Assembly: GCA_018064925.1 (NCBI GenBank)
Contig: JAGHUH010000023.1
Location: forward strand, 62,001-126,000
Reading direction: 5' to 3'
Length of the DNA stretch: 64,000 bases
DNA from: Candidatus Cacconaster stercorequi
GTDB taxonomy: Bacteria > Bacillota > Clostridia > Oscillospirales > Oscillospiraceae
Part shown: in pieces, positions 1-13,207 of the stretch
Layout: each line of letters begins with the position of its first letter
Position numbering within the stretch: the first letter of the stretch is position 1
Notes under the pieces: generated by a model
The model's input: the letters and a program-made list of their open reading frames with translations, nothing else
Databases searched by the model: none
What the model was told of the DNA's origin: nothing
Position numbers and translations under genes: made by a program

Positions 1-1243
1 CACGGCTGATAAGGTCATCGGCATACATATCCATGTATTTCTGCCTTGTTTTTTGCAGTTTGGAAAGTTGCGCGTTCAATTCCTTTTCATAATTCAGATT
101 TTCGTCCTTTGCTTTGTAAACTCGCTGAAATTCATTCACAACATAGCGTATTGCATTCTTCTTTGCTTTCAGCAGTTCGGCAAAGTATTTCTGCAAAACA
201 TCAATTAGTTCATCTTCATCTATGGTTACAGCGTTAGGGCAACTATCTGCTCCGCGCCCATTATGCCCTGAACATACCCAGCGGACATAGGTGTTTTTAT
301 AGGTGCGAACATTTCGACGAAATGACCAACCACATTCTTTGCATTTGATAAGTGTAGAAAACAGATACTTATTGCTCTGGCGTTCTTTGTCCACCTTAAA
401 GGTCTTGCCGCGGGCTTTCATAATCTGCTGCGCCTGTTCAAAAACTTCTGGGTCAATAATCCGCAAGTCCGGGCGTTCTACAACAATCCAGTCTGTTTCG
501 TCCTTGTCGATTCTCTGCCCGGTCAGGAAGTCGGACACTTCCTGTTTGCCGTTGATTATTTTTCCCGTATAAAGTTCGTTGGTAAGAATGCGGCAAACCC
601 CGTTCTGGCTCCACTGGCAGTTACGCTTTGTCCGCAGACCACGCTCATTTAAGAAGATTGAAATCTTCGCAGCACCATATCCGTCCTTGATATACCACTG
701 GTAAATTTGCCGGACAACAGCCGCTTCTTCTTCATTGATGGTAAGGTTAAAATAATCTCCAATCGACTTATTATATCCGTAAACGATATTCGGGACACGA
801 CCTTTTTCCGCGTTCATTTTTTTACCGAACTTCACACGCTTTGAGGTGTTGGCGCTTTCTTCCTGTGCCAAAGCTCCGAAGATTGTCAATACAAATTCGC
901 TGTTGCCCATGCTGGTCATATTGGCGGTCAAAAACTGTGTTTCAATCCCCAACGCTTTAAGCTTGCGGACATTCTGCAATAGATCCACTGTGTTGCGTGC
1001 AAAGCGTGAGATATCTTTCACCACGACCATGTCAAAGAGACCGTGCTCAGCATCGGCCATCATGCGCAGAAACTCTTTTCGATTTTTAATTTTCGTACCA
1101 GAAATACCCTCGTCTGCATACAACCGAACAAGGTTGTTTCCAGTGCGCTGGGTGTATTCTGAAAAAAATTCCTTCTGTGCTTCCAAACTGTTGAGCTGAT
1201 CGGCCTTGTCCGTAGAAACACGGCAATATGCGGCTATATTCAT
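1..1243 (-). CDS. Large serine recombinase, 3' end outside the window
   Basis: Site-specific recombinase of the large serine (TnpX/TndX/SpoIVCA-like) class, which integrates and excises mobile elements. The protein begins MNIAAYCRVST with the catalytic serine at residue 10, followed by an SRFARN motif near residue 80. A resolvase domain (about 1-145) is followed by a recombinase domain with a TGKIINGK stretch, a zinc-ribbon region (CKECGW, then a later Cys) and a C-terminal coiled coil. 414 codons are visible before the window edge, so the stop is not seen. GAGAGG lies 8 bases before the ATG. It is the leftmost visible gene and points towards the predicted left end of the element, the usual place for the integrase. 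Confidence 0.93.
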   Translation of the reverse strand, partial: MNIAAYCRVSTDKADQLNSLEAQKEFFSEYTQRTGNNLVRLYADEGISGTKIKNRKEFLRMMADAEHGLFDMVVVKDISRFARNTVDLLQNVRKLKALGIETQFLTANMTSMGNSEFVLTIFGALAQEESANTSKRVKFGKKMNAEKGRVPNIVYGYNKSIGDYFNLTINEEEAAVVRQIYQWYIKDGYGAAKISIFLNERGLRTKRNCQWSQNGVCRILTNELYTGKIINGKQEVSDFLTGQRIDKDETDWIVVERPDLRIIDPEVFEQAQQIMKARGKTFKVDKERQSNKYLFSTLIKCKECGWSFRRNVRTYKNTYVRWVCSGHNGRGADSCPNAVTIDEDELIDVLQKYFAELLKAKKNAIRYVVNEFQRVYKAKDENLNYEKELNAQLSKLQKTRQKYMDMYADDLISR

Positions 1244-1335
1244 AGTGTAACCTCTCTGTTATTTTCAAATCGTTCTGTTACCTCTTCATTTTAGCATATG
1301 ACGATTTGGTTTGCAATAAAAAAAGGACACACTGC

Positions 1336-1515
1336 CTACGCAGAGTGCCCATCTTCGGATTTTTTTTCAACATTACGAACTGCATTTGCATCTTTTTGTA
1401 TTGCTGACTCTACCTTCTTCGCGTTTGCTTCCAGCAAGACTTTTAATATGTAATCGGCGGATGCAGCCGCGGAATTAGGATTATGAAATCGGTAATTCAA
1501 AGGTGTTTTTTTCAT
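1336..1515 (-). CDS. Small conserved-looking element protein, 59 aa
   Basis: Unrecognised 59-residue basic protein beginning MKKTPLNYRFHNPNSAA and ending in a charged, Ala/Lys-rich helix. AAAGGAGG precedes it, but 13 bases from this ATG, a long spacing. A second ATG at 1525, only 3 bases from the same site and in another frame, opens a 14-codon ORF that could be a leader. It sits directly upstream of the serine recombinase in the same orientation, so it could be an accessory or directionality factor; that is inference from position only. I assign no function. Confidence 0.55.
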   Translation of the reverse strand: MKKTPLNYRFHNPNSAAASADYILKVLLEANAKKVESAIQKDANAVRNVEKKSEDGHSA

Positions 1516-1607
1516 AGCGGTGCATGCGCCTCCTTTCGTTAAGGGTCTTGCTCATTCTATGAAGGCTGAGAGCAGAATAGCACTGTAATAATTCCAAAAC
1601 ATGGTTT

Positions 1608-1637
1608 ACTATACTGTATTATTTGCCATTCGTCCAA
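1608..1637 (-). promoter_or_regulatory. Candidate SigA promoter for the recombinase unit
   Basis: On the minus strand TTGGAC (1632-1637) and TATAGT (1608-1613) are 18 bases apart, upstream of the 59-aa gene and the recombinase. Seen by eye only. Confidence 0.4.
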
Positions 1638-1647
1638 TGCCCCTTAC

Positions 1648-2802
1648 TTATAATCTTGGAGCAATATTCTCTCGCATAAAGGAATCAAAGCTGGGATAAT
1701 TTATCCGATAATCATTTGCGTTCTTCCGAAGCCAATAGCGACAATCATCATTTGGTTCGTATTCTTTCAGATAGTCGTATATGAAGTCCAAAACCTTTTT
1801 AACGGCTTCTTCACCCCAGATGCTTCTTATCTTATAGAGCGTTGATACTGCTCCACTTCCAAAAAAGAGGTGAGTTAGACTCTTTGCAATATCATAGTTT
1901 CGTGAGGAAGGAGCCTTCAGAATAAATGTCTGATTACTGATATAACTCATCAGCAATTTGATGTATTCCGTATCATCCTCAATCACGCCTTTATCAATTA
2001 CCATGATTCGGAATTTCTGAATCATAATATTTGCAATCAAGTTCGCGTATTCGTTATCGTTTGTCACTGTCAAAAGGTTCTCACCGATTTGATGAGCAAA
2101 TTCGTGACGAAAGACACCTTCGAAGCGAACCCAGTTCTTACAGGCTCGTGCCTTTGCTAACTTGGTACCATTTCGTTCTATCTGCTCACGCTTTTTATCA
2201 TAGATACGGAGACGAGAATTGCTCTGTGCTGACCCTAAGTAGATCGTAGGTACCTCCTGACCCTTTAGAAAACCTTGATACTCCAAATCACATCTTCGGT
2301 ATGACTTCTCGCCAGTTTTCTTATTCCTAAATTCGCGGAAGACGGCCGCTTTGTTGTCAATAAAGCTTTGGTAAATATCTGTTACGTCGATGTCTTCATC
2401 TATATAATCAGCAGTCAGATCAACTCTGGACAGCCGTGTTGTATATGCCTTGTCCTGAACGGCTTTCAGAAACTCATAGACCTTCATGCCGGATTTTTCT
2501 GTGTAATAATCAAGTGCTTGTGCGCTAAACTTAATCGCGACGCCCATATCACCACGGATTTGGTGGTAGGCGATAGCCAGAAAAAAATTGTGCTCACCGA
2601 AGCTGAAACCAATGTCATATCCCATCGGGGGGCGGCACTCAGGACGAATTTCCCCAAAAATGCCTTCGAACCTTGCCTTGCAGATAAAGCGTTTCATCAT
2701 GTATTCAGCCAGACACGGCCAGTCGGACGGGTCCATTTTTGCCTTGACAGATAAGGGAAGCTGTAAAACCAATGTCAGCTCATCGACCCCAAGCTCAATC
2801 AT
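1648..2802 (-). CDS. MobT-type relaxase (Rep_trans family)
   Basis: Replication-initiation-like relaxase of the Rep_trans family (Tn916 Orf20, ICEBs1 NicK). These nick the element's origin of transfer, allowing rolling-circle replication and mobilization. The 384-aa length fits. Family-type stretches include LSRVDLTADYID, SNSRLRIYDKKREQ and WVRFEGVFRHEF. GAGAGGG lies 9 bases before the ATG. It follows the TcpA-like gene in the same order as orf21-orf20 of Tn916. The gene looks intact. Relaxase identity rests on family resemblance and synteny; the catalytic tyrosine was not pinned down. Confidence 0.82.
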   Translation of the reverse strand: MIELGVDELTLVLQLPLSVKAKMDPSDWPCLAEYMMKRFICKARFEGIFGEIRPECRPPMGYDIGFSFGEHNFFLAIAYHQIRGDMGVAIKFSAQALDYYTEKSGMKVYEFLKAVQDKAYTTRLSRVDLTADYIDEDIDVTDIYQSFIDNKAAVFREFRNKKTGEKSYRRCDLEYQGFLKGQEVPTIYLGSAQSNSRLRIYDKKREQIERNGTKLAKARACKNWVRFEGVFRHEFAHQIGENLLTVTNDNEYANLIANIMIQKFRIMVIDKGVIEDDTEYIKLLMSYISNQTFILKAPSSRNYDIAKSLTHLFFGSGAVSTLYKIRSIWGEEAVKKVLDFIYDYLKEYEPNDDCRYWLRKNANDYRINYPSFDSFMRENIAPRL

Positions 2803-2873
2803 TTTGCATCACCCTCTCTTTCCTGCAACATTTGTTGATTTACGATAACAATAGTAAGTTTTGTTTTCTGGAA

Positions 2874-2896
2874 CCTCCGTGGTTACACCACGGAGG
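2874..2896. other. Perfect hairpin between tcpA-like and mobT-like genes, candidate oriT
   Basis: A perfect 9-bp inverted repeat, CCTCCGTGG and CCACGGAGG, with loop TTACA, overlaps the stop codon of the coupling-ATPase gene. No T-run follows on the minus strand, so it is not a typical terminator. In Tn916/ICEBs1 the oriT lies in this neighbourhood and contains a short G/C-rich inverted repeat, so this is a candidate nic-region hairpin. That is inference. Confidence 0.35.
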
Positions 2897-4199
2897 CTTG
2901 CTTACAGGCTTGCAGGATATCAAAATTACAGTATGGAAACTGAACTAACTTAGGCTCAGGGGCTAATACAGGCTCTGTAAATACTCCTTCCCCAACGCTG
3001 TAATGTCTATTTGGGATGTCTACACCCGCTCCAAATGCTGTCACATAAGTCTGCTGTTCTGAGTTACCCAGAACAATCTTCAGCGGAATATTATCTCGGA
3101 GTGCCGTATCAATGAGTGTTGCGTCAGATTTTTGCATGATAATGAACAGAAAGAAGCCAAGCTGCCGCCCTTGCAATATTACTTCGTATAGAAGTGCTTT
3201 TACTTTATCTCTTGTTTTTTTATCGCTGGATGCAAGGACAGAGGCAAAGGACGCATACTCATCGCAGATGAAGATATATGGCGACATCCCAAAATCAGAA
3301 TAGTCCGCGTCAATCCTTGTCTTTAACCTTTTTCGAAGTTCTGTCTTCCGCTCACGCATAAGAGCAACAAATTGCCCAAGTGATTCGATAATTGCCTCCA
3401 CGCTTGATGCTGTCCGCTCCGGTGCAATCTCCTGACCAATTACAGCAAGGGAAGACCCTTTCGGATCGGCAAAATAGAGGTGATAAGGCACGTCCTTATA
3501 CAGCATCTGCATCAGCAGACTATAAACAGCGTAGGTCTTTCCGCTGCCTGTTTGGCCTACCAAAATGGCATGCTGCAATCGGGGCGTTGAACGGCTGTCG
3601 AGAAAAAGCTTGTATGTTGAAATCGTCTTGCTGTACTGTAGGAACTCATCGAGAGAGTTATATGTCTGTTTGAATGATACAGATCCATCTACAAGTTCAT
3701 AGATATACCAGTTGCCATCGTCCGTGCTGTAATGCCTTTCCACAACAAACTTGCGAAGAGCGGATGACATTACAACATCATCGAGCACTTTGTTGTACTT
3801 CAACGCATTTCGAATACGCAATGTTGCAGAGTTCAAATCTTTGGAGAAAGAAAGCTGTATCTTCGGTGTCACAATGATATTTCCATGTCGAACCATGATA
3901 CCTGCATCTATCATTTGCCGTTCAAGGCAATTCAGTATTATCCAGTGATACCAGAAATATCGAACTCCTTTGAAGATGTGATGTTCAATGAGAATTGCCA
4001 TAATCATCAAAGCAATCACAAGAGCACTCATAGCCCAGAGATTCAGCGTTGCCTTATCCATTAACGCCATCTGAAACGACCTGTTTAATATCTTTGCCCC
4101 CAAACCGAGGGCAAAGAATGTTAAACTGATTGCAAGCAGCGTCAGCCTTTCTGCTTGACGCTTACGCATTGCCCTTTGCCTGTGCAGGAACAACCTCAT
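2883..4199 (-). CDS. FtsK/SpoIIIE-type DNA translocase, TcpA/Orf21-like coupling protein
   Basis: Membrane-anchored ATPase expected to feed relaxase-bound DNA to a conjugation channel (Tn916 Orf21, ICEBs1 ConQ, TcpA group). Two hydrophobic segments near the N terminus (about 20-38 and 53-71) precede the motor domain. Walker A is GQTGSGKT at 215-222 and Walker B is YIFICDEYAS. The 438-aa length is normal for the family. The start overlaps the end of the upstream small gene by 38 bases, suggesting translational coupling. No secretion-channel genes are visible, so the element would need a helper. Confidence 0.85.
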   Translation of the reverse strand: MRLFLHRQRAMRKRQAERLTLLAISLTFFALGLGAKILNRSFQMALMDKATLNLWAMSALVIALMIMAILIEHHIFKGVRYFWYHWIILNCLERQMIDAGIMVRHGNIIVTPKIQLSFSKDLNSATLRIRNALKYNKVLDDVVMSSALRKFVVERHYSTDDGNWYIYELVDGSVSFKQTYNSLDEFLQYSKTISTYKLFLDSRSTPRLQHAILVGQTGSGKTYAVYSLLMQMLYKDVPYHLYFADPKGSSLAVIGQEIAPERTASSVEAIIESLGQFVALMRERKTELRKRLKTRIDADYSDFGMSPYIFICDEYASFASVLASSDKKTRDKVKALLYEVILQGRQLGFFLFIIMQKSDATLIDTALRDNIPLKIVLGNSEQQTYVTAFGAGVDIPNRHYSVGEGVFTEPVLAPEPKLVQFPYCNFDILQACKQASVV

Positions 4200-4548
4200 A
4201 GTCGCGGAAACGAAGAATCAGATCAAAGCCCACGGCGAAAGAGTGTTCTGCATCAAAATCTTTCAGACGCACCATATCGCCCTTCCGCACAGGCGCATTG
4301 CGAGACAACACCGTTACGTCAAAGTTCTGAAAAACATTGTTCTCACGCTGAACGCCATCCTTGGTTACCCCGTAATCGAAATCATCCTTTAACACCATCA
4401 GAGTCAAGGTATACCCTTCAGGCAGCATACCTTTCTTGTCTGTATAAGGACGCACAGAAACGACCCTATACATATTGTGGGTAGCCTTCGCAAGAGACTC
4501 CCAATCGATGACTGTACGAACAAATTTGAATGTGTTTACTAATGACAT
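4162..4548 (-). CDS. Small element protein, possibly DUF961/HelP-like
   Basis: 128-residue soluble protein with no signal peptide and an alternating beta-rich pattern. Position (just upstream of the TcpA-like gene) and size match Tn916 Orf22/Orf23 and ICEBs1 HelP, which help the host helicase during element replication. Sequence resemblance to DUF961 is not strong enough to claim by eye, so this is inference from synteny. It overlaps the next gene by 38 bases and starts 6 bases after the preceding gene, so all three are one operon. Confidence 0.6.
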   Translation of the reverse strand: MSLVNTFKFVRTVIDWESLAKATHNMYRVVSVRPYTDKKGMLPEGYTLTLMVLKDDFDYGVTKDGVQRENNVFQNFDVTVLSRNAPVRKGDMVRLKDFDAEHSFAVGFDLILRFRDYEVVPAQAKGNA

Positions 4549-4554
4549 ATTTCC

Positions 4555-4860
4555 TTACCTCCGAAATTCATTTTCAATTTCAAAAAACTGCTGATTAAGT
4601 TTGTCCCTTAAATCAAGCAATTCTTTGTACAATTCGTGTCCAGAGTACTCGTTGTGCTTGACTTTCTCATAGCGTCTCTCCATATTCCTAACGCTCAAGT
4701 AATCATCTGCATACCAGAGTCCCCAGAGCGGAGAACTGCGCGCCAATTCAAATTGATTATCTTGTGTCAGCCGCAAATAGGCCGTATTCCCATAGTCAGC
4801 AAGAATTTCGACCATCAGCTCTTCTATCGCTTCAAGATGGTTATTCATTTGTTCCGCCAT
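4555..4860 (-). CDS. Hypothetical acidic element protein, 101 aa
   Basis: First gene of the mobilization operon. Start chosen at MAEQMNNHLE because AAAGGAGAT lies about 9 bases before it; an upstream in-frame ATG at 4905 would lie inside the leader terminator. The protein is Glu-rich and helical, with a GLWYADDYLS segment and a coiled-coil-like C terminus. Not recognised. In Tn916-like elements this slot holds a small accessory gene, so a role in mobilization or replication is possible but unproven. Confidence 0.65.
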   Translation of the reverse strand: MAEQMNNHLEAIEELMVEILADYGNTAYLRLTQDNQFELARSSPLWGLWYADDYLSVRNMERRYEKVKHNEYSGHELYKELLDLRDKLNQQFFEIENEFRR

Positions 4861-4900
4861 AGTTCTTATCTCCTTTCCGCAAAAATTTAATGTAAAAAAT

Positions 4901-4940
4901 AACAACGGCGAAATGAATTGATACTCATTTCGCCGTTGTT
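4901..4940 (-). terminator. Strong leader terminator (attenuator) ahead of the mobilization operon
   Basis: A perfect 16-bp inverted repeat (arms 4901-4916 and 4925-4940, loop of 8) is followed on the minus strand by TTATTTTTT. It lies between the promoter at 5051-5079 and the first gene at 4860, so transcripts must read through it. The interval 4861-5300 holds this leader and promoter and no convincing gene. A 7-codon ATG frame (MLLTTAK) ends inside the 5' arm but lacks a ribosome binding site. Confidence 0.7.
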
Positions 4941-5050
4941 AATAACATATTGGAGGCAGGTTGCAACCCGATGACACTTTACCACAGTGCACCGTTTTGG
5001 TTAAAACGTAAATTACCTTAACAAGTAGCTATATTTTGTTTTCTGAACAT

Positions 5051-5079
5051 ATCATAGCAAAAAGTGCACTATTTGTCAA
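5051..5079 (-). promoter_or_regulatory. Strong SigA promoter of the mobilization operon
   Basis: Minus strand TTGACA (5074-5079), 17-base spacer, TATGAT (5051-5056). The predicted transcript start near 5044 gives a leader of about 180 nt before the 4860 gene, containing the terminator at 4901-4940. Confidence 0.75.
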
Positions 5080-5300
5080 CTCTTGTGCGGCATCTTTGAA
5101 CTTTTTCGCTCTTTCAAAAACTGCTCGTTTATGAGGCGTTTTTTACAAAAGGACGCGCCTTCTTGAGTTGTTCACAGAAAATTAACATTTTCTAATAGAC
5201 AAGCAACACCATAAGCCGTGTATTTTCATCCCATCTTCTCCTTAGTTTGCTTACCTATATTGTATTGTCTTGGATTATTGCTATGTAAATCATGCAAATA

Positions 5301-6206
5301 CTACCGCCGCTTTAACAGGTGGTTGGTTATTCGCTGCTGATTGGCAACAGAGCGGACAGCATTGGTGTTGCTTTGTACCGCGCCCAAGATAGATCCCTGC
5401 AATGCAATCTGTCCAAGAGACAGCAGATTGGCATAACGCAGTTCCTGTCTCATAGACTGCATGTTGATTAGTTCTTTCCGCTCAATGTCAAGAATAGCCT
5501 GCTGGCTTGCCAGCATTCGCTTGCGATATTCTCTGTTGTCCAGCTGAAGGACGGCTTCTTTGATACTATCCGCCCGGTGATTTTCCAGATCGCTGATGAA
5601 AGAATTCACAGCTTCTATGCTGTAGTAATCCTTCGGAAACCAACTGCCGGACATTTGCCACAACTCTTCACGCAGTGCGTCAATCTCTTCCACCGTTTCA
5701 TCATACTGTCGTTGCAAATCCTGATTAAAATGTGAAATCTCTTCATTTTTTATGTCGACCCGCTTATTGACTGTGCGGATGGAGAGGAACAAGACGGGAA
5801 TCACAACGATCAGAGAAAACGCTAAGAGAAGAAACTCCCTGAAGCGAATCAAATCATATAGAAGGACACCCACAATCAGCACCAACACGATATAGGCCAA
5901 ATTTTTCCACTTAGATTTCTTATCCCGTAAAAGCACAATTATACTGATGCATACCACAAGGATTATCGTCGTTGTCCAGTCTCCGTGGCCAATTCCAAAC
6001 ACTAAAGATTGTATAAAAAGGGTGATACCCAAGCAGACGGCAGCAACCAACTTCATCTTGTTTTTTGCGCCGTCTGTGGATATACCGACCTGTTTTTCGC
6101 GATATTGTCCCACAATCTCGGCTTGACGCTCCATGGCAGCGTAAATACGCTGTAGTTGCGCTTTGATTTTACGTAGATTGCGCAACAGCTGTTCTCTGTC
6201 TTCCAT
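5301..6206 (-). CDS. Coiled-coil membrane protein of unknown function
   Basis: 301 residues. An N-terminal coiled coil (about 1-35) is followed by four hydrophobic segments between about 50 and 145, then a long charged coiled-coil region rich in Glu and Arg, and a C-terminal helix ending in NHLLKRR. No enzyme motif is visible. GGAGGG precedes the ATG. It is in the AT-rich element and is probably cargo, separated from the mobilization operon by a promoter-containing gap. Possible roles such as a membrane scaffold, exclusion or defence protein are guesses; no function is assigned. Confidence 0.7.
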   Translation of the reverse strand: MEDREQLLRNLRKIKAQLQRIYAAMERQAEIVGQYREKQVGISTDGAKNKMKLVAAVCLGITLFIQSLVFGIGHGDWTTTIILVVCISIIVLLRDKKSKWKNLAYIVLVLIVGVLLYDLIRFREFLLLAFSLIVVIPVLFLSIRTVNKRVDIKNEEISHFNQDLQRQYDETVEEIDALREELWQMSGSWFPKDYYSIEAVNSFISDLENHRADSIKEAVLQLDNREYRKRMLASQQAILDIERKELINMQSMRQELRYANLLSLGQIALQGSILGAVQSNTNAVRSVANQQRITNHLLKRR

Positions 6207-6256
6207 TTCTGTTTCCCTCCAGCTTAATCTATCTTTTGATTCCTTATCTATATCTT

Positions 6257-6288
6257 AAAGACAAGATGCCCGTAGGCATCTTGTCTTT
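6257..6288 (-). terminator. Hairpin terminator after the LRR/FN3 protein gene
   Basis: A perfect 14-bp stem (6257-6270 with 6275-6288, loop CGTA) lies just downstream of the stop at 6293. The following T-run is short, so termination may be weak. Confidence 0.5.
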
Positions 6289-6292
6289 GTTG

Positions 6293-7468
6293 TTATTTCG
6301 CCTTGACGCAGGTAATGCTCTTTATGCTGCTAAATGCGCTGTTGCCATAGCTGCTCTTGGTACAGACCGCTTTGACTTTATAGTAGTAAGTATGGTCCAC
6401 CACGGCAGAGATATTGGTAAACTGGGTCGATGTGGTGGTGTAGTACTTGGAATAGCTACCGCTCTTGCTGGTGGCACGCCAAATCTCGTACTTGCCCGCA
6501 CCGCTTACCGCCTGCCACTTCAAATGAGGCTTGCCCGTAGAGGCAACCGTGGAAATGATCACGGTCGGTCTTGCGCAATCGCAGGTAATGTAATGTATGG
6601 TGCTGAAACTGCCGACCTTACCGTTGCTGTCTATGGCGCGTACCTTATAGTAGTATGTGTCGCCCGCTACCGCCGAGGTATTGGTATAGCTGTTTCCCGT
6701 AGTGGTGTAATACTTGGTGTACGTGCCGCTCTTGCTGGTGGCACGCCAGACTTCATACTTGGCTGCACCGCTTACTGCAGGCCATGTCAGATGCGGTTTA
6801 CCGCTGTCGGCCTTAATCGTTATCGATACAGCGGGTGCACTCATTGCGGCCTTTTTCCATGTCAGCGTGCCGCCGTAATTCTTACGGGCACTAGATGTCC
6901 ATGTAGTGTTGCCTGCAGGATAATAGCACGTGGCGGTGACACCATAAAAGATAATGGGCGAATCACTTTTCAGCTCTCCCAAATCTGTAGGACCATTAAA
7001 GGTAGGTGCATTGCCCAAGAACTTAACTGTGCGTAATGCGCTGTCATTGCTAAAAGCAAATGCGCCAATATATTTCACCGTACTGGGAATGGTAATTTCC
7101 TTTAGCTTGCTGCAAAGGCTGAACTGCTCAACATCGATTCGGGCATAGCCCTCCGGCAATGTTACCTTTTCTAGATTTTTACAGTTTCTGAACGCATCAA
7201 CGCCGACACCGGTAACGCCCTTTTGGATTACCACCTGCTTAATCAGCGATGCCTTCTCTGCCCACGGCGTATTGTAGCCGTTTGGATTACGCACTTCTCC
7301 CTTTCCGCTGATTGTCAAAATGCCGTCATCGGTCAGCTTGTAGGTAAGGCTTTCATAGCTGCCGCTGTCCACTACGGTGGCGGCAAATGCTGTGGCGGGC
7401 ACCAATGTCAGTACCAGCATCAGCATCAAAATTGCTGATAGCAGACATGTTTTGCGCTTGTGTTGCAT
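6293..7468 (-). CDS. Secreted BspA-type LRR protein with two FN3-like repeats
   Basis: 391 residues from MQHKRKTCLLSAILML. A signal peptide ends near TAFA-A, so the protein is exported. A leucine-rich BspA-like region follows (FRNCKNLEKVTLPEGY and LCSKLKEITIPSTVKYIG units). Then come two near-identical fibronectin-III-like modules of about 90 residues, each with a W-x-A-V-S-G-A-x-K-Y-E-(V/I)-W-R-A-T-S-K-S-G core and a TYYYKV strand. The start was chosen for AAAGGGG about 9 bases upstream and for the signal peptide. There is no sortase motif or membrane anchor, so it is released or bound noncovalently. Such proteins usually bind surfaces, matrix or glycans; here it is cargo of the element. Confidence 0.85.
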   Translation of the reverse strand: MQHKRKTCLLSAILMLMLVLTLVPATAFAATVVDSGSYESLTYKLTDDGILTISGKGEVRNPNGYNTPWAEKASLIKQVVIQKGVTGVGVDAFRNCKNLEKVTLPEGYARIDVEQFSLCSKLKEITIPSTVKYIGAFAFSNDSALRTVKFLGNAPTFNGPTDLGELKSDSPIIFYGVTATCYYPAGNTTWTSSARKNYGGTLTWKKAAMSAPAVSITIKADSGKPHLTWPAVSGAAKYEVWRATSKSGTYTKYYTTTGNSYTNTSAVAGDTYYYKVRAIDSNGKVGSFSTIHYITCDCARPTVIISTVASTGKPHLKWQAVSGAGKYEIWRATSKSGSYSKYYTTTSTQFTNISAVVDHTYYYKVKAVCTKSSYGNSAFSSIKSITCVKAK

Positions 7469-7609
7469 AATAATTCCCCTTTCTTTTAGCTGATTTTTAA
7501 CGATATATACATATATCGGGCTACATATTATTATACTCAATATATTAGGCATAGTCAAGATATTAAGCATGATACGATAATTGCATCACAATGATAGGAC
7601 TTGCTCACT

Positions 7610-7819
7610 ATGATTTCTTACACGCCCTTTTGGAACACGTTGAATGTAAAGAATATGTCTACCTATGATCTTATTTTCAAGGAGGGAATTTCTGCGAACA
7701 CGATTCACAGAATGAAGCATGGGCAGGTTATTACCACAAAGACTTTGAACGAACTATGCTTTATTCTCAAATGTAGTGTATCTGACATTATCGAATATGT
7801 GGAAGACGAAAGCGACTGA
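7610..7819 (+). CDS. Small XRE-family HTH regulator
   Basis: 69 residues from MISYTPFWNTL, closely resembling the short Cro/C1-type regulators (YozG-like) common in clostridial elements. The HTH is visible as FKEGISANTIHRMKHGQVITTKTLNELCFILKC. Start at the ATG fits family members, which begin MISY; an in-frame TTG at 7601 lacks support. The ribosome binding site is weak (AGGAC). It is transcribed away from the LRR gene and is the only obvious transcription factor of the element's visible part, so it may control element or cargo genes (inference). Confidence 0.8.
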   Translation: MISYTPFWNTLNVKNMSTYDLIFKEGISANTIHRMKHGQVITTKTLNELCFILKCSVSDIIEYVEDESD

Positions 7820-7837
7820 ATCGAGCCTACTTTAATG

Positions 7838-7855
7838 GGCTGATCAGCCGCTTTT
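7838..7855 (+). terminator. Weak terminator-like palindrome after the HTH gene
   Basis: A 12-base perfect palindrome GGCTGATCAGCC (7838-7849) is followed by GCTTTTT. Weak because it has almost no loop. Confidence 0.3.
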
Positions 7856-7889
7856 TACTGATATCTGACGATATCTCCTAAACGACGGA

Positions 7890-7975
7890 AACCATCTGTC
7901 AACCAGACTTTCGCGGCATAAAACAGTGTGAGCACTGAATTATTCCACGGTTCAAGTTGACAGGTGGTTTTTTCG
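7890..7975 (+). ncRNA. Candidate structured RNA or leader with terminal U-run
   Basis: Arms AACCATCTGTCAAC (7890-7903) and GTTGACAGGTGGTT (7956-7969) pair at 13 of 14 positions, enclose an inner CAGTG-TGAG-CACTG hairpin near 7924-7937, and end in TTTTTT. It lies between the HTH gene and the SprT-like gene. It resembles no riboswitch I can name. It could be a leader of the SprT-like gene, a small RNA, or just a terminator. Confidence 0.35.
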
Positions 7976-8044
7976 CCGTTTGTTTGGCAGACAAGCAGTT
8001 GCATAAGCAACATGCTACGCATCAAATAATTTTAGGAGGAACGA

Positions 8045-8689
8045 ATGATGAAGCAAACCACAAAAATGAGCCGAGCTGTTAGCCAGTTGGAACACATCTA
8101 CAATGCACTTAACACGGATTTTTTTGATGGGGAACTGCAAACGCCGATTATTACCGTGCAGTCTAAGCCGGGCACTTACGGTCATAGCAGTACCGCAAAG
8201 ATTTGGAAGCGAAAAAATGAAGATACCTACGAAATTAACATTGCAGCCGAGGTGCTGAACTTCCCCATTGAGGAAACACTTGATACGATGTTACATGAAA
8301 TGGTACATCTGTATTGCCGAGAGCGCGGGATCAAAGAGGTGAGTCGAAACGGGACATACCACAATAAGCGATTTAAGGAAATTGCCGAAAGCCACGGCTT
8401 AACCTGTATTCCGTGTGGAAAGTACGGCTGGAATACCACACCGGGCGACAATTTGGTTGAGTATGCCTTAAATAGAGGCTGGAATGAAATTTTAATAGGC
8501 CGTAATACAGGCTTGCCGTCTATCCGTACAGGAACAGCAGGCGGGATAAAGCAGGGTGATACCGCAGGCGGAAAACGCACCAGCAGCACCCGAAAGCTGA
8601 TATGCCCCATCTGCGGTCAATCGGTACGAGCCACAAAAAAGGTAAATATATTGTGCGGTGACTGTATGCAGCCCATGATTGAAGCATAA
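8045..8689 (+). CDS. SprT-like zinc metalloprotein
   Basis: 214 residues. The SprT-like domain has the zinc metallopeptidase motif HEMVH at 84-88, a further HN-KRF-E-A-x-x-H segment (YHNKRFKEIAESHG), and a C-terminal zinc ribbon with CPICGQ and CGDC pairs. SprT/Spartan relatives act on DNA-bound proteins; stand-alone SprT-like genes are common in Firmicutes mobile elements, where the substrate is unknown. AGGAGGAA precedes two adjacent ATG codons (8045, 8048). It is the last gene before the element's right end. Proteolytic activity is inferred from the motif. Confidence 0.85.
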   Translation: MMKQTTKMSRAVSQLEHIYNALNTDFFDGELQTPIITVQSKPGTYGHSSTAKIWKRKNEDTYEINIAAEVLNFPIEETLDTMLHEMVHLYCRERGIKEVSRNGTYHNKRFKEIAESHGLTCIPCGKYGWNTTPGDNLVEYALNRGWNEILIGRNTGLPSIRTGTAGGIKQGDTAGGKRTSSTRKLICPICGQSVRATKKVNILCGDCMQPMIEA

Positions 8690-8690
8690 G

Positions 8691-8725
8691 AAAATGACCC
8701 GGATTTGATCCGGGTCATTTTTGTA
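8691..8725 (+). terminator. Rho-independent terminator after the SprT-like gene
   Basis: A perfect 14-bp stem (8691-8704 with 8708-8721, loop TTG) followed by TTTTTG, starting just after the stop codon. Confidence 0.85.
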
Positions 8726-8798
8726 AGTGCACTTTCAATTTTGCGCCATTATGTGCAAAGGTTTAGCTGATATGTGTGCCTATTTTATTAACCAAATA

Positions 8799-8833
8799 TA
8801 CCGTTCTATTTGATTACGACTATATGTACGGTA
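8799..8833. other. Predicted right end (attachment junction) of the element in spoIIID
   Basis: SpoIIID-like coding sequence stops matching at about 8821-8826, just after the VSKSTVH codons, and AT-rich element sequence begins. Imperfectly spaced inverted hexamers TACCGT (8799-8804) and ACGGTA (8828-8833) flank the junction, as half-sites of a serine-recombinase site might. The exact crossover dinucleotide cannot be fixed without the other end. Confidence 0.55.
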
Positions 8834-8925
8834 GATTTGCTGACACCGAACTGCCTGGCGGCGGCCCGGACGGTGGTGCGGTTTTCTATCAGGTAAAGGG
8901 CCAGATCCTCGGCCCGCTGTTCCAT
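8806..8925 (-). pseudogene. spoIIID: 5' fragment of spoIIID interrupted by the mobile element
   Basis: Reads MEQRAEDLALYLIENR, then TVRAAARQFGVSKSTVH, then five unrelated residues IVVIK and a stop (39 aa). The second block is the SpoIIID helix-turn-helix; intact SpoIIID (roughly 80-95 aa) continues with KD-ERL and a basic RHLRGG-type C terminus, both missing here. Four codons upstream in frame is ATC-AAA-GGG-AAT; family members often begin M-(K/R)-G, so the original ATG may have become ATC, leaving Met5 as start. SpoIIID is the mother-cell DNA-binding regulator of SigE genes and of sigK. Without excision of the element the product lacks the C-terminal half. Confidence 0.82.
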
Positions 8926-10443: not shown

Positions 10444-11760
10444 TTAGCGATCCTTATTCCCCAGAACGATGAACAGCAGGGAACTGACACACAACAGGAA
10501 GGGGTAGAACAGGAAGGGAATGATCTCGAAGGCGGAGACGCTGTAGCCCAGCGTGGCGCAGGCGGAGATGGCGACCAGCATCTGGGCACCGTAGGGGATA
10601 ATGCCCTGGAAAATGCAGGAGAAGGTATCCAACAGCGAGGCGGAGCGCTTGGCGTCGATGCCGTATTCCGCACTGACCTCCCGGGCGATGGGGCCGGCCA
10701 TGACAATGGCCACGGTGTTGTTGGCGGTGGCAATATCCATCAGCCCCACCAGCAATCCAATGCCCAGCTGTCCGCCGCGGTTGCCCTTGCATACCCGCCG
10801 GATAAAGTTCAGCAGTGCCTCGAAGCCACCGTAGGCGCGGATCATGCCGCACAGGGCGGCCACCAGAATGGTGACCATAATGGTTTCAAACATCCCGGAT
10901 ACGCCGCTGCCCATGCCGGCAAGCACATCCAGAGCGGTCATCTGACCGGTGGCAATCGAGATGCCGGCGCCGGTGATGATGCCCAGCAGCAGCACGATAA
11001 ACACATTCAGCCCCGCAATGCCGCCAATGAGCACCAGTACATAGGGGATCAGAAGCAGCATATTGTGCTCGACGGCGGCCACAGGTGTGGCGTCAGCGCG
11101 GAACGAGATGACCAGAATGAGTGCCAGCGTGGCCAGAGCGGCAGGCAGGGCAATCTTGAAGTTGGCGCGAAACTTATCCCGCATTTCACAGCCCTGGGTG
11201 GAGCAGGCGGCGATGGTGGTGTCGGAGATAAAGCTCAGATTGTCGCCGAACATGGCCCCGCCGATGACCGCCGCTACGCACAGCGGCAGAGAAAAGCCGG
11301 AGTCCATAGCCACCGGCACGGCGATAGGTGTCAGCAGCGTGATGGTACCCACGGAGGTACCCATGGCCACGGATACGAAGCAGGCCACCACGAACAGTAC
11401 GGCCACGGCCAGACGGGGCGGTGTTACGCTCAGCAGGAAATAGGCGGCGGCCTCGGCGCTGGAGCGTCCGGTGACGCCTACGAAGATGCCGGCGGTCAGG
11501 AAGATCAAGATCATGATCATGATGTTCTTGTCACCTACACCTTTGGCCATCAGCTCCAGCTTGTCGTCAAATGTTACGGTGCGGTTCTGGAAACAGGCCA
11601 CCAGAATGGCGGCCAGAAACGCTACCACAATGGGGATCTGGTAAAAGCCCATTTCGATATGCAGTATGTATTCAAACAGAATACCCAGTCCCAGATACAG
11701 CACCAGAAAAACGGCGATAGGCAACAGGGCAATACCCTTTGCGTTCGGTTTTTGATTCAT
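10444..11760 (-). CDS. nhaC: Na+/H+ antiporter, NhaC family
   Basis: 438-residue polytopic membrane protein with about 11-12 hydrophobic segments. Family blocks are clear: GTSVGTITLLTPIAVPVA, the GGAMFGDNLSFISDTTIAA signature, and MDIATANNTVAIVMAGPIA near the end. It exchanges cytoplasmic Na+ (or another substrate in NhaC-related exchangers such as malate/lactate or arginine/ornithine) for H+. AAGGAG precedes the ATG. A leader of roughly 370 nt with two small ORFs lies upstream (11761-12112), suggesting translational or transcriptional control. Exact substrate is not decidable from sequence. Confidence 0.88.
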   Translation of the reverse strand: MNQKPNAKGIALLPIAVFLVLYLGLGILFEYILHIEMGFYQIPIVVAFLAAILVACFQNRTVTFDDKLELMAKGVGDKNIMIMILIFLTAGIFVGVTGRSSAEAAAYFLLSVTPPRLAVAVLFVVACFVSVAMGTSVGTITLLTPIAVPVAMDSGFSLPLCVAAVIGGAMFGDNLSFISDTTIAACSTQGCEMRDKFRANFKIALPAALATLALILVISFRADATPVAAVEHNMLLLIPYVLVLIGGIAGLNVFIVLLLGIITGAGISIATGQMTALDVLAGMGSGVSGMFETIMVTILVAALCGMIRAYGGFEALLNFIRRVCKGNRGGQLGIGLLVGLMDIATANNTVAIVMAGPIAREVSAEYGIDAKRSASLLDTFSCIFQGIIPYGAQMLVAISACATLGYSVSAFEIIPFLFYPFLLCVSSLLFIVLGNKDR

Positions 11761-11799
11761 GTCGGTATTCTCCTTTGTGTTAGATGTTTTTTGGAAATC

Positions 11800-11910
11800 T
11801 CAACGGATTGCGTAAATGGCGGCAGGGATGCCGCGCATTCGGCGATAATTCCGTGCTTCCGGCAGGGGTGTGTGCCCCACAAGCCGGTCGACGGCGTGAT
11901 AGATGTGCAT
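11800..11910 (-). CDS. Leader ORF 2 upstream of nhaC, 36 aa
   Basis: Starts MHIYHAVDRLVGH and is Arg-rich at the end. It has a good site (AAAGGAC, 7 bases before ATG) and ends 40 bases before nhaC. Probably a regulatory upstream peptide or a small protein; not recognised. Confidence 0.45.
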   Translation of the reverse strand: MHIYHAVDRLVGHTPLPEARNYRRMRGIPAAIYAIR

Positions 11911-12016
11911 AAAAATTGTCCTTTCTTGTGGCACAAGGAAATGCAACGCATTTTCGGGCATAAAAATAAGCAGAAAGTGCATCACACGCCTTCTGCTGAA
12001 TATGAAACGAGTGTCC

Positions 12017-12112
12017 CTATATGGGGGAGTCGCTGCTGAAAGCCGTATGATTGATTTGAGCGTAGCAATATGCGTGCATACACATCATGCAGTTCATCAA
12101 AAAGCGTTTCAT
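12017..12112 (-). CDS. Leader ORF 1 upstream of nhaC, 31 aa, Met/Cys-rich start
   Basis: Begins MKRFLMNCMMCMHAYCYAQ and has AAAGGA 8 bases before the ATG. With leader ORF 2 it makes a two-peptide leader. A TATAAT-like -10 (12144-12149, minus strand) lies about 30 bases upstream with no good -35. The remaining stretch 11911-12277 shows no other gene. Confidence 0.4.
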   Translation of the reverse strand: MKRFLMNCMMCMHAYCYAQINHTAFSSDSPI

Positions 12113-12230
12113 ATGGTGCGTCCTTTCATAAAATCTATAACTAATTATATATTTAGCATATAACAAAGTCCATTGGTGGACTGAACAAAGCTTCTGCTTC
12201 CACAGAGGAAAAATTTTGCCAATTCATAAA

Positions 12231-12265
12231 AAAACAGCGCAGTTCATTGTGAACTGCGCTGTTTT
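12231..12265 (-). terminator. Terminator after the nitrilase gene
   Basis: A 16-bp stem (12231-12246 with 12250-12265) followed on the minus strand by a long T-run; it begins 12 bases after the nitrilase stop. Confidence 0.9.
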
Positions 12266-12277
12266 CAAGATATAGTT

Positions 12278-13207
12278 TTACTTTTCGTGGATGATCAGCT
12301 CGGTGACATCGGGGCGGGAGTAGTGGCCGCAGGGGTCGAACTCCATCCGGGCGCGGGCGGCCTCGTCGGGGTTGATGTCAGCGTAAATGATGCACTCCTT
12401 GTCCCATACCGGCTCGGTGACATAGTGGCCGTAGGGGTCGATGATGGCGCTGCCGCCGTTGCAGGGTGCGACCGGCAGCTTGGCGATCTCATCGGCGGCG
12501 GGGCCGTGGTAGTCAGCGGGATACATATCTTTGGTAAAGTACTGGTTGACATGGAACACATAGCACTTGCCCTCGATGGCGATGTGCTTGATGGTGTCGT
12601 GCCACTCGGGGTTGTTGTTGGTGTTGGGGCACAGATACAGGCTCACGCCCTTCATATAGAGCGCCACGCGAGCCAGAGGCATATAGTTCTCCCAGCAGAT
12701 CAGGGCGCCCATGTTGCCCCAGGGGGTCTCCACCACGGGGAAGTAATCGCGGTTGGCATCGCCCCACACAAGGCGCTCGGCACCGGTGGGCTTCAGCTTG
12801 CGGTGGTTGCACAGCAGCTTGCCGTCCGGCCCGAAGATCATGTTGGCGCAGTACAGCGTGCCGTTTTCCACGCCGCGCTCGGTGTAGCCGATGGATACAT
12901 AGGCGTGGGCATCCCGGGCGGCTTCGCCAATCTTGTCGGTATCGGCGCTGGGGCAGACCACGGCGTTGTCATAGTAGATCTTCCAGTCGTCCCGGCATTC
13001 CTCCGTGCGGCTTCCCACGGTGAAGCCGTAGGTCAGACCGTAGGGGTAGCAGGGGATCAAAGATTCGGGAAATACGATCAGCTCGGCGCCGTTTTTGCCC
13101 GCTTCGCGGATCTGCGCGCAGACCTTATCGATGGTGGCATCCTTGTTGAACATCACAGGGGTGGCCTGCACCAGAGCCACCCGCAGATTTTTCTGAATAT
13201 CCTTCAT
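12278..13207 (-). CDS. Nitrilase-family carbon-nitrogen hydrolase
   Basis: 309 residues with the full catalytic triad: Glu48 (VFPES), Lys137 (HRKLKPT) and Cys171 (CWENYMP). The CWENYMP environment and length match the true nitrilase branch (nitrile to carboxylate plus ammonia) more than amidases or carbamoyl-putrescine hydrolases. Cytoplasmic, likely oligomeric. GGGAGG precedes the ATG. Monocistronic, with its own terminator. The physiological nitrile is unknown; detoxifying plant-derived nitriles in a gut setting is plausible inference. Confidence 0.88.
   Translation of the reverse strand: MKDIQKNLRVALVQATPVMFNKDATIDKVCAQIREAGKNGAELIVFPESLIPCYPYGLTYGFTVGSRTEECRDDWKIYYDNAVVCPSADTDKIGEAARDAHAYVSIGYTERGVENGTLYCANMIFGPDGKLLCNHRKLKPTGAERLVWGDANRDYFPVVETPWGNMGALICWENYMPLARVALYMKGVSLYLCPNTNNNPEWHDTIKHIAIEGKCYVFHVNQYFTKDMYPADYHGPAADEIAKLPVAPCNGGSAIIDPYGHYVTEPVWDKECIIYADINPDEAARARMEFDPCGHYSRPDVTELIIHEK

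Follow-up and report, generated by a model that had tools for sequence, protein, structure and literature searches.

Several sporulation genes are known to be split by mobile elements. The gene of the mother-cell regulator sigK is interrupted by such an element, which carries a large serine recombinase (LSR), both in B. subtilis (skin) and in C. difficile (skinCd, CD1231), and in the latter a small directionality factor, CD1234, is under sigma-E control (PMC5025042). The gin element of B. cereus ATCC10987, presented in PMC5595907 as a non-phage element with an LSR and the 42-aa protein GirX, splits gerE, again a small mother-cell regulator gene. Further intervening elements of sporulation genes are SP-beta in spsM, vfbin in spoVFB, the spoVR element and yin in yabG (PMC6957869 and PMC10747680). 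Here we describe an element that splits spoIIID in a stretch of 64,000 nucleotides, called the window below, from Candidatus Cacconaster stercorequi (GCA_018064925.1, contig JAGHUH010000023.1, positions 62,001 to 126,000, hereafter C3:62001-126000). A split spoIIID was described nowhere in the literature found by searching for the gene name, a search that left subscription papers and preprints mostly outside, and we regard this as a previously undescribed target within the skin-type intervening elements.

The window belongs to a draft genome of 1.83 Mb in 46 contigs, 88.46% complete. The features on which the argument rests are these:

Positions 1 to 1243, minus strand (full gene C3:61708-63243): large serine recombinase of 511 aa, with its 3' end outside the window at C3:61708.
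Positions 8779 to 8826, minus strand: element-side att arm (CATATAGTCGTAATCAAATAGAACGG...), which in the LSR frame encodes a 15-codon tail, TYSRNQIERYIWLIK, followed by TAG, which the LSR would gain on the circle.
Positions 8823 to 8827, minus strand: shared core ACATA at the junction of the spoIIID 5' half with the element; the crossover CA is placed at 8825-8826 from all junction pairs.
Positions 8824 to 8925, minus strand: spoIIID 5' half, 34 codons from the ATG to a His codon (MEQRAED...SKSTVH), its frame continuing into the element (IVVIK, stop) to 8806.

The minus-strand frame at 8806-8925 reads MEQRAEDLALYLIENRTTVRAAARQFGVSKSTVH, then IVVIK and a stop. The initial annotation had taken it for the SpoIIID N terminus running into element DNA, and had predicted the missing 3' half to the left of the window, beyond a serine recombinase at the element's left edge that reads the same way. 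A search of the whole genome with profile TIGR02844 bears this out. It gave exactly two matches, both on C3: profile positions 4-38 at C3:70821-70925 (window 8821-8925), and positions 35-79 at C3:61584-61718, immediately left of the window and next to the recombinase on the minus strand, the latter being the 511-aa LSR. The same search returned no intact second spoIIID, which the annotation had named as a result that would speak against its reading; this absence is not absolute, because the genome is only 88.46% complete. The halves have the same orientation, both are open, as is the LSR frame, and the insert between them measures 9,114 bp core to core, with a GC content of 43.6%, the two measured flanks having 56.0% and 55.6%. 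SigE and SpoIVA match over their cut-offs in the same genome, and a loss of its sporulation genes was rejected on these grounds.

The two junctions share ACATA, flanked by inverted arms: the 5' half ends ...ACC GTA CATATAG and the 3' half starts ...GACGAAACATAAGGATCTTAGC. Joined at CA, the halves read ...SKSTVHKDLSERLPQYNRALYLQVKEILEENKAQRHIRGGMATRRKYKGL and a stop, which is a full-length SpoIIID in frame. The LSR gene ends on the junction, its stop TAA being completed by spoIIID bases, and its product matches the Resolvase (PF00239), Recombinase (PF07508) and zinc-ribbon (PF13408) domains, all over cut-offs; identity as CcrB, CcrC or XisF was rejected, as the NCBIfam equivalog cut-offs were missed (147/900, 138/900 and 128/375 bits). 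The likeness to the sigK skin layout proposed at the outset thus holds in its parts: a sporulation gene in two halves of the same orientation, an LSR encoded by the element, and a short shared core that gives in-frame rejoining. The system differs from skin in its target: in C. difficile, SpoIIID works upstream of the excision of skin, and here it cannot help its own element out; furthermore, cargo is mostly unshared among the spoIIID elements and the LSR gene overlaps attP.

The same split recurs widely. Among 32 genomes of the genus, the studied one included, 29 have a SpoIIID match, in one piece in 26 and in two in the other three (G000, G006 and G030; numbers of this kind denote sampled genomes, with L for loci and C for contigs). 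In the family sample 327 of 400 genomes have a match, and when the 45 with half-size scores or extra matches were followed up by coordinates, at least 22 of the 327 proved to be split at the same codon, 16 on one contig (the studied genome included) and six over two contigs. Six others hold one half beside an LSR or att arm (G302, G311, G400, G194, G106 and G407). A class-wide sample gave matches in 280 of 391 genomes, nine of them with both halves, from seven families by their assigned labels, where both junctions were read in eight and G776 was assessed by coordinates only; G590, G654 and G573 have one half at the site. Inserts range from about 2.5 to 65 kb, and in G556, a single contig of 4.07 Mb, 64.7 kb lie between the halves. 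General fragmentation of small genes was rejected with yabP as a control (85 positions, same 400 genomes), which was matched in 351; among the matches listed, the genomes with two yabP matches had best E-values on the full-length scale, except G383, whose genus scores low throughout.

Every one of the 21 pairs of halves on one contig, the studied genome included, has its junctions at this one His codon, where 20 of them join again in frame (G068 leaves the contig inside the 3' half), so that the split site is not a matter of chance. The site encodes SKSTVH-KD of the SpoIIID helix-turn-helix, interrupted between TVH and KD, and that this stretch is conserved is probably the reason why the insertions occur in so broad a range of hosts. 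Serine recombinases cross over at two bases, and the bases common to every junction pair reduce to CA, which fits that expectation. Some genomes also hold an intact spoIIID together with an extra 5' half. In G239 and G286 this reflects contigs that fork at the core, described below, and in G154 and G304 the extra pieces look like divergent or element-adjacent copies. In G289 (C27) the intact gene and a 5' half with an att-like tail (HGGVNVERWIWVVR, stop) are oppositely oriented, separated by about 18.7 kb, and are alike over some 200 bases upstream, an inverted partial copy that possibly arose through inversion or duplication by the recombinase.

What the elements have in common is the LSR and its att site. 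When proteins of the first 17 elements were clustered, the LSR alone was general (16 by clustering, G392 by inspection), other clusters being confined to two to six elements. Its place is at the end with the 3' half, G281 being an exception; in G556 it sits close to the 5' half and on the opposite strand. Conversely, genome contigs yielded 368 LSR relatives, and of the best 80 among them 76 directly adjoin the 3' half of a spoIIID (75 by tblastn, L100 where its contig stops); L104 breaks off too early, and L062, L063 and L091 sit elsewhere. Named records among these relatives come from Pseudoflavonifractor, Flavonifractor, Angelakisella, Agathobaculum, Blautia, Extibacter and Schaedlerella; the split gene is present in cultured gut commensals such as Flavonifractor sp. 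An82, Pseudoflavonifractor An507 and An569, and Extibacter muris DSM 28560. Lachnospiraceae records hold LSRs 89-93% identical to that of the window, which implies that the module moves between orders, and the distant LSRs of G468 and G728 (34% identical) stop at the same place. In phage and plasmid collections all relatives fall below 60% identity, and the best phage record, MT838016, also adjoins a spoIIID 3' half. The use of one conserved site in a target gene by diverse LSRs is known, e.g. for a prolyl isomerase; spoIIID is absent from the main text of that report (PMC10083194).

Two peculiarities of the LSR set deserve separate mention. In G392 (L024) a single frame at 10629-12311 runs from the LSR into the 3' half of spoIIID, giving 560 aa that end ...RHIRGGIATRRKYRGEA, and the integrated form there may be a recombinase-SpoIIID fusion. 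Four Lachnospiraceae LSRs (L085, L088, L089 and L090) have, ahead of the core, extensions that are rich in Asn and resemble repeats (e.g. NTTGNTPNIAENT...).

The position of attP inside the recombinase gene has a further consequence. The LSR stop is ACA-TAA, taken from the spoIIID bases CATAAG, in 9 of 16 LSR genes; on the circle, the frame would cross attP and continue into the opposite element end. We translated this tail in 45 dereplicated junctions (47 before dereplication), 43 integrated and two unintegrated. A stop precedes codon 12 in 6 of the 45 in the LSR frame, against 31 and 38 in the other two frames, and the first stop falls exactly at codon 16 in 22. Tryptophan occurs at codons 11-14 in 25/45 (mean 11.9 and maximum 18 in 2,000 column shuffles), and tryptophan together with a stop at the expected place in 24/45 (shuffle mean 6.6, maximum 13). 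Third positions of codons 8-10 are more variable than first and second ones. The conserved tail has 15 residues, TYxxxxxERFIWxI and stop, and four IMG/VR contigs (two distinct sequences) carry an LSR with the tail and an uninterrupted attP. The frame statistics and these unintegrated viral contigs show the tail to be coding sequence in the unintegrated form, and integration removes it. AlphaFold2 gave the free-form LSR a mean predicted local distance difference test (pLDDT) of 65.7, and the tail, at a pLDDT below 50, has no confident model.

As in mycobacteriophage BPs, attP lies inside a gene whose product is shortened at its C terminus by integration (PMC4557955). The BPs repressor thereby loses a degradation tag, while at spoIIID it is the recombinase itself that is shortened; BPs integration-dependent immunity is the nearest precedent that we found for the loss of the tail. 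Truncation of a recombinase is not mentioned in the passages considered from the reports on SP-beta, vfbin, the spoVR element and yin, which also concern other genes and hosts. We offer as a tentative idea, possible rather than probable, that integration edits the recombinase, so that loss of the tail sets its direction and couples a self-setting switch to a developmental gene. The tailed LSR would be the form that enters, and the tailless one the form that stays until SigE is active and then leaves; removal of the tail would often come about through a stop codon supplied by the His-Lys codons of spoIIID in another frame, and short, apparently domesticated elements could afford to let the tail decay.

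Two further features lie upstream of the LSR gene:

Positions 1336 to 1515, minus strand: 59-aa protein (LNYRFHNPN...), a candidate recombination directionality factor whose gene immediately precedes that of the LSR.
Positions 1554 to 1581, minus strand: sigma-E-like promoter position (GCTATT...CATAGAAT), with a good -10 and an off-consensus -35, upstream of the small gene.

A protein of about 60 aa with the NYRFHNPN signature precedes the LSR in 52 of 111 loci, usually behind a motif resembling a sigma-E promoter; these loci include viral contigs whose LSRs are 44-46% identical. Pfam, NCBIfam and PHROGs gave no match to the protein, for which AlphaFold2 predicts one long helix (mean pLDDT 84.6, predicted template modelling score 0.43); its position and size make it a candidate directionality factor. 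Upstream of its gene, all 31 regions less than 80% alike have CATA between -94 and -64 from the anchor; the number is 4-8 of the 31 in equal windows farther upstream, and a mean of 14.6 and at most 20 after dinucleotide shuffling of the region. Together with a -35 (ATA or TATTT at 12-18 bases) it is found in 23/31, against a shuffle mean of 3.0 and a maximum of 9. These patterns were picked after the alignment had been viewed, guided by the description of C. difficile sigma-E promoters in PMC3789822 (ATA at -35, a CATA-type -10, spacing 16-18). The conserved -10 and its spacing look like a mother-cell promoter; sigma-K shares the CATA-type -10.

The rest of the element consists of the following genes:

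Positions 1648 to 2802, minus strand: Rep_trans-domain (PF02486) relaxase or initiator, weakly MobT-like, the domain match being over cut-off.
Positions 2883 to 4199, minus strand: FtsK/SpoIIIE-domain protein by domain match, coupling-protein-like.
Positions 4162 to 4548, minus strand: 128-aa protein without family match, adjoining the FtsK gene and perhaps YdcP-like.
Positions 4555 to 4905, minus strand: small protein without family match.
Positions 5301 to 6206, minus strand: 301-aa protein without family match.
Positions 6293 to 7570, minus strand: BspA-type leucine-rich repeat protein (cargo).
Positions 7601 to 7819, plus strand: Cro/C1-type helix-turn-helix protein (cargo).
Positions 8045 to 8689, plus strand: SprT-like domain protein (cargo).

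The relaxase misses the MobT cut-off (NF041493, 28/600 bits), and only PF02486 passes. A prophage was rejected, as none of the ten element proteins scanned, six of them in a further scan as well, is a structural phage protein; in its gene content the element resembles a small mobilizable element. Among twenty of the larger cargo proteins, taken from eight other elements, the matches include Mob_Pre, DNA methylase, VapE-like, GH31, CheB/CheR, ATP-synthase and RdRP-like domains, and several proteins had no match. The RdRP-type domain (PF05183) is in a 989-aa protein of the G203 element (L028:7130-10099). The 5.0-kb insert of G064 (L034) holds the LSR, a LUD-domain protein, a 746-aa protein without Pfam match and little else.

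We propose that an LSR element sits in spoIIID in the manner of skin and is excised in the mother cell with SigE, rejoining the gene, and we put the probability of this at roughly two in three. The LSR would integrate the element site-specifically at the His codon of the helix-turn-helix; once SigE is active in the mother cell, the LSR, probably with the small protein as directionality factor, would excise it, and in-frame rejoining of the halves would allow SpoIIID to be made, while the forespore would retain the element. By analogy with skin, gin and kin, rejoining by excision is very likely. A mother-cell timing, which we infer from the promoter motif, and a part of the small protein in excision are less direct conclusions. 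The initial annotation had likewise tied excision to SigE activity, for which the sigma-E-like motif upstream of the recombinase operon in relatives speaks and the copy in the window, with its good -10 only, does not. Several observations weigh against the proposal. Excision has been seen in no cell, and the small protein is detected in only 52 of the 111 loci. The window copy has CATAGAAT but does not fit the -35 and -10 patterns taken together, and close to it is a sigma-70-like match at background level (three found, 1.9 expected). In G667 (C27) and G736 (C37) a clean 3' half is accompanied by a weak best 5' match with three in-frame TAA codons; these are possibly decayed cases, and because of them conservation is not universal.

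The last two genomes would suit a dead end, in which SpoIIID and sporulation have been lost and the halves have not yet decayed. Absence of any SpoIIID match in 73 of the 400 family genomes (31 of the 245 high-quality ones) shows that loss of spoIIID does occur, and it may be common in parts of the family. We nevertheless think a dead end improbable, given that 20 of 21 pairs rejoin in frame, SigE and SpoIVA are intact in the studied genome, and the LSR frame is open in 33 of 34 genomes picked by their spoIIID match (31, plus G468 and G728; G400 is cut by a contig end), the only count that bears on decay because the LSR search itself favours intact LSRs. Of the two outcomes that the initial annotation had left side by side, loss of SpoIIID is accordingly disfavoured, also by the open halves and LSR in the studied genome, and excision is the one that we infer. 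That the split is an assembly artefact or chimera, for which the 46-contig draft might be blamed, we consider extremely improbable and have rejected: the same junction recurs in 21 same-contig pairs that include the single contig of G556 and named isolates.

A more serious competitor, still unlikely in our judgement, is that the element leaves and re-enters at a low rate in growing cells for transfer, unlinked to sporulation, and that a minority with an empty site sporulates. The relaxase-like and FtsK-like genes, the 89-93% identical LSRs in Lachnospiraceae and the unintegrated copies in viral contigs all agree with transfer, as do contig forks at the core in metagenome-derived genomes, which suggest that integrated and empty sites coexist in one sample. 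In G286 a contig ends ...GGTACA and overlaps an intact-gene contig by 77 bases, in G239 element-junction and intact-gene contigs share 97 bases and diverge at the core, in G138 two contigs end and start at the core, and in G343 one ends at GGTACATA; by chance about 0.1-0.4 core-ends would be expected among 327 genomes with the contig numbers assumed. Such forks could stem from strain mixtures, contigs of G314, G141 and G165 break near the core and not at it, and in none of the four fork genomes was an LSR of the window's type found at E 1e-120 or better, so that their elements would be unbinned or have more distant recombinases; these points, too, count against our proposal. What argues against transfer alone is the conserved CATA -10 with its spacing upstream of the small gene and LSR, which resembles a mother-cell promoter, and the retention of the LSR by elements that have shrunk to 2.5 and 5 kb and lost most cargo.

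SpoIIID switches the gene expression of the mother cell at an early point, ahead of the stage where skin elements come into play. The gin element differs in occupying another gene, measuring 28.6 kb and having three recombinases, and insertions at the spoIIID site are spread over several families of Clostridia. The system presents many cargos at a single fixed insertion site, short and long forms of one recombinase that occur naturally and can be compared, and a candidate directionality-factor family without described relatives in the libraries searched; annotation pipelines would report the split spoIIID as two gene fragments. In bacteria with a split spoIIID, spore formation probably depends on prior removal of the element. 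If several per cent of the species of a large gut family have the gene split, and at least seven of the sampled families of Clostridia contain such cases, DNA rearrangement may gate sporulation there, and with it the host-to-host transmission via spores of many gut bacteria.

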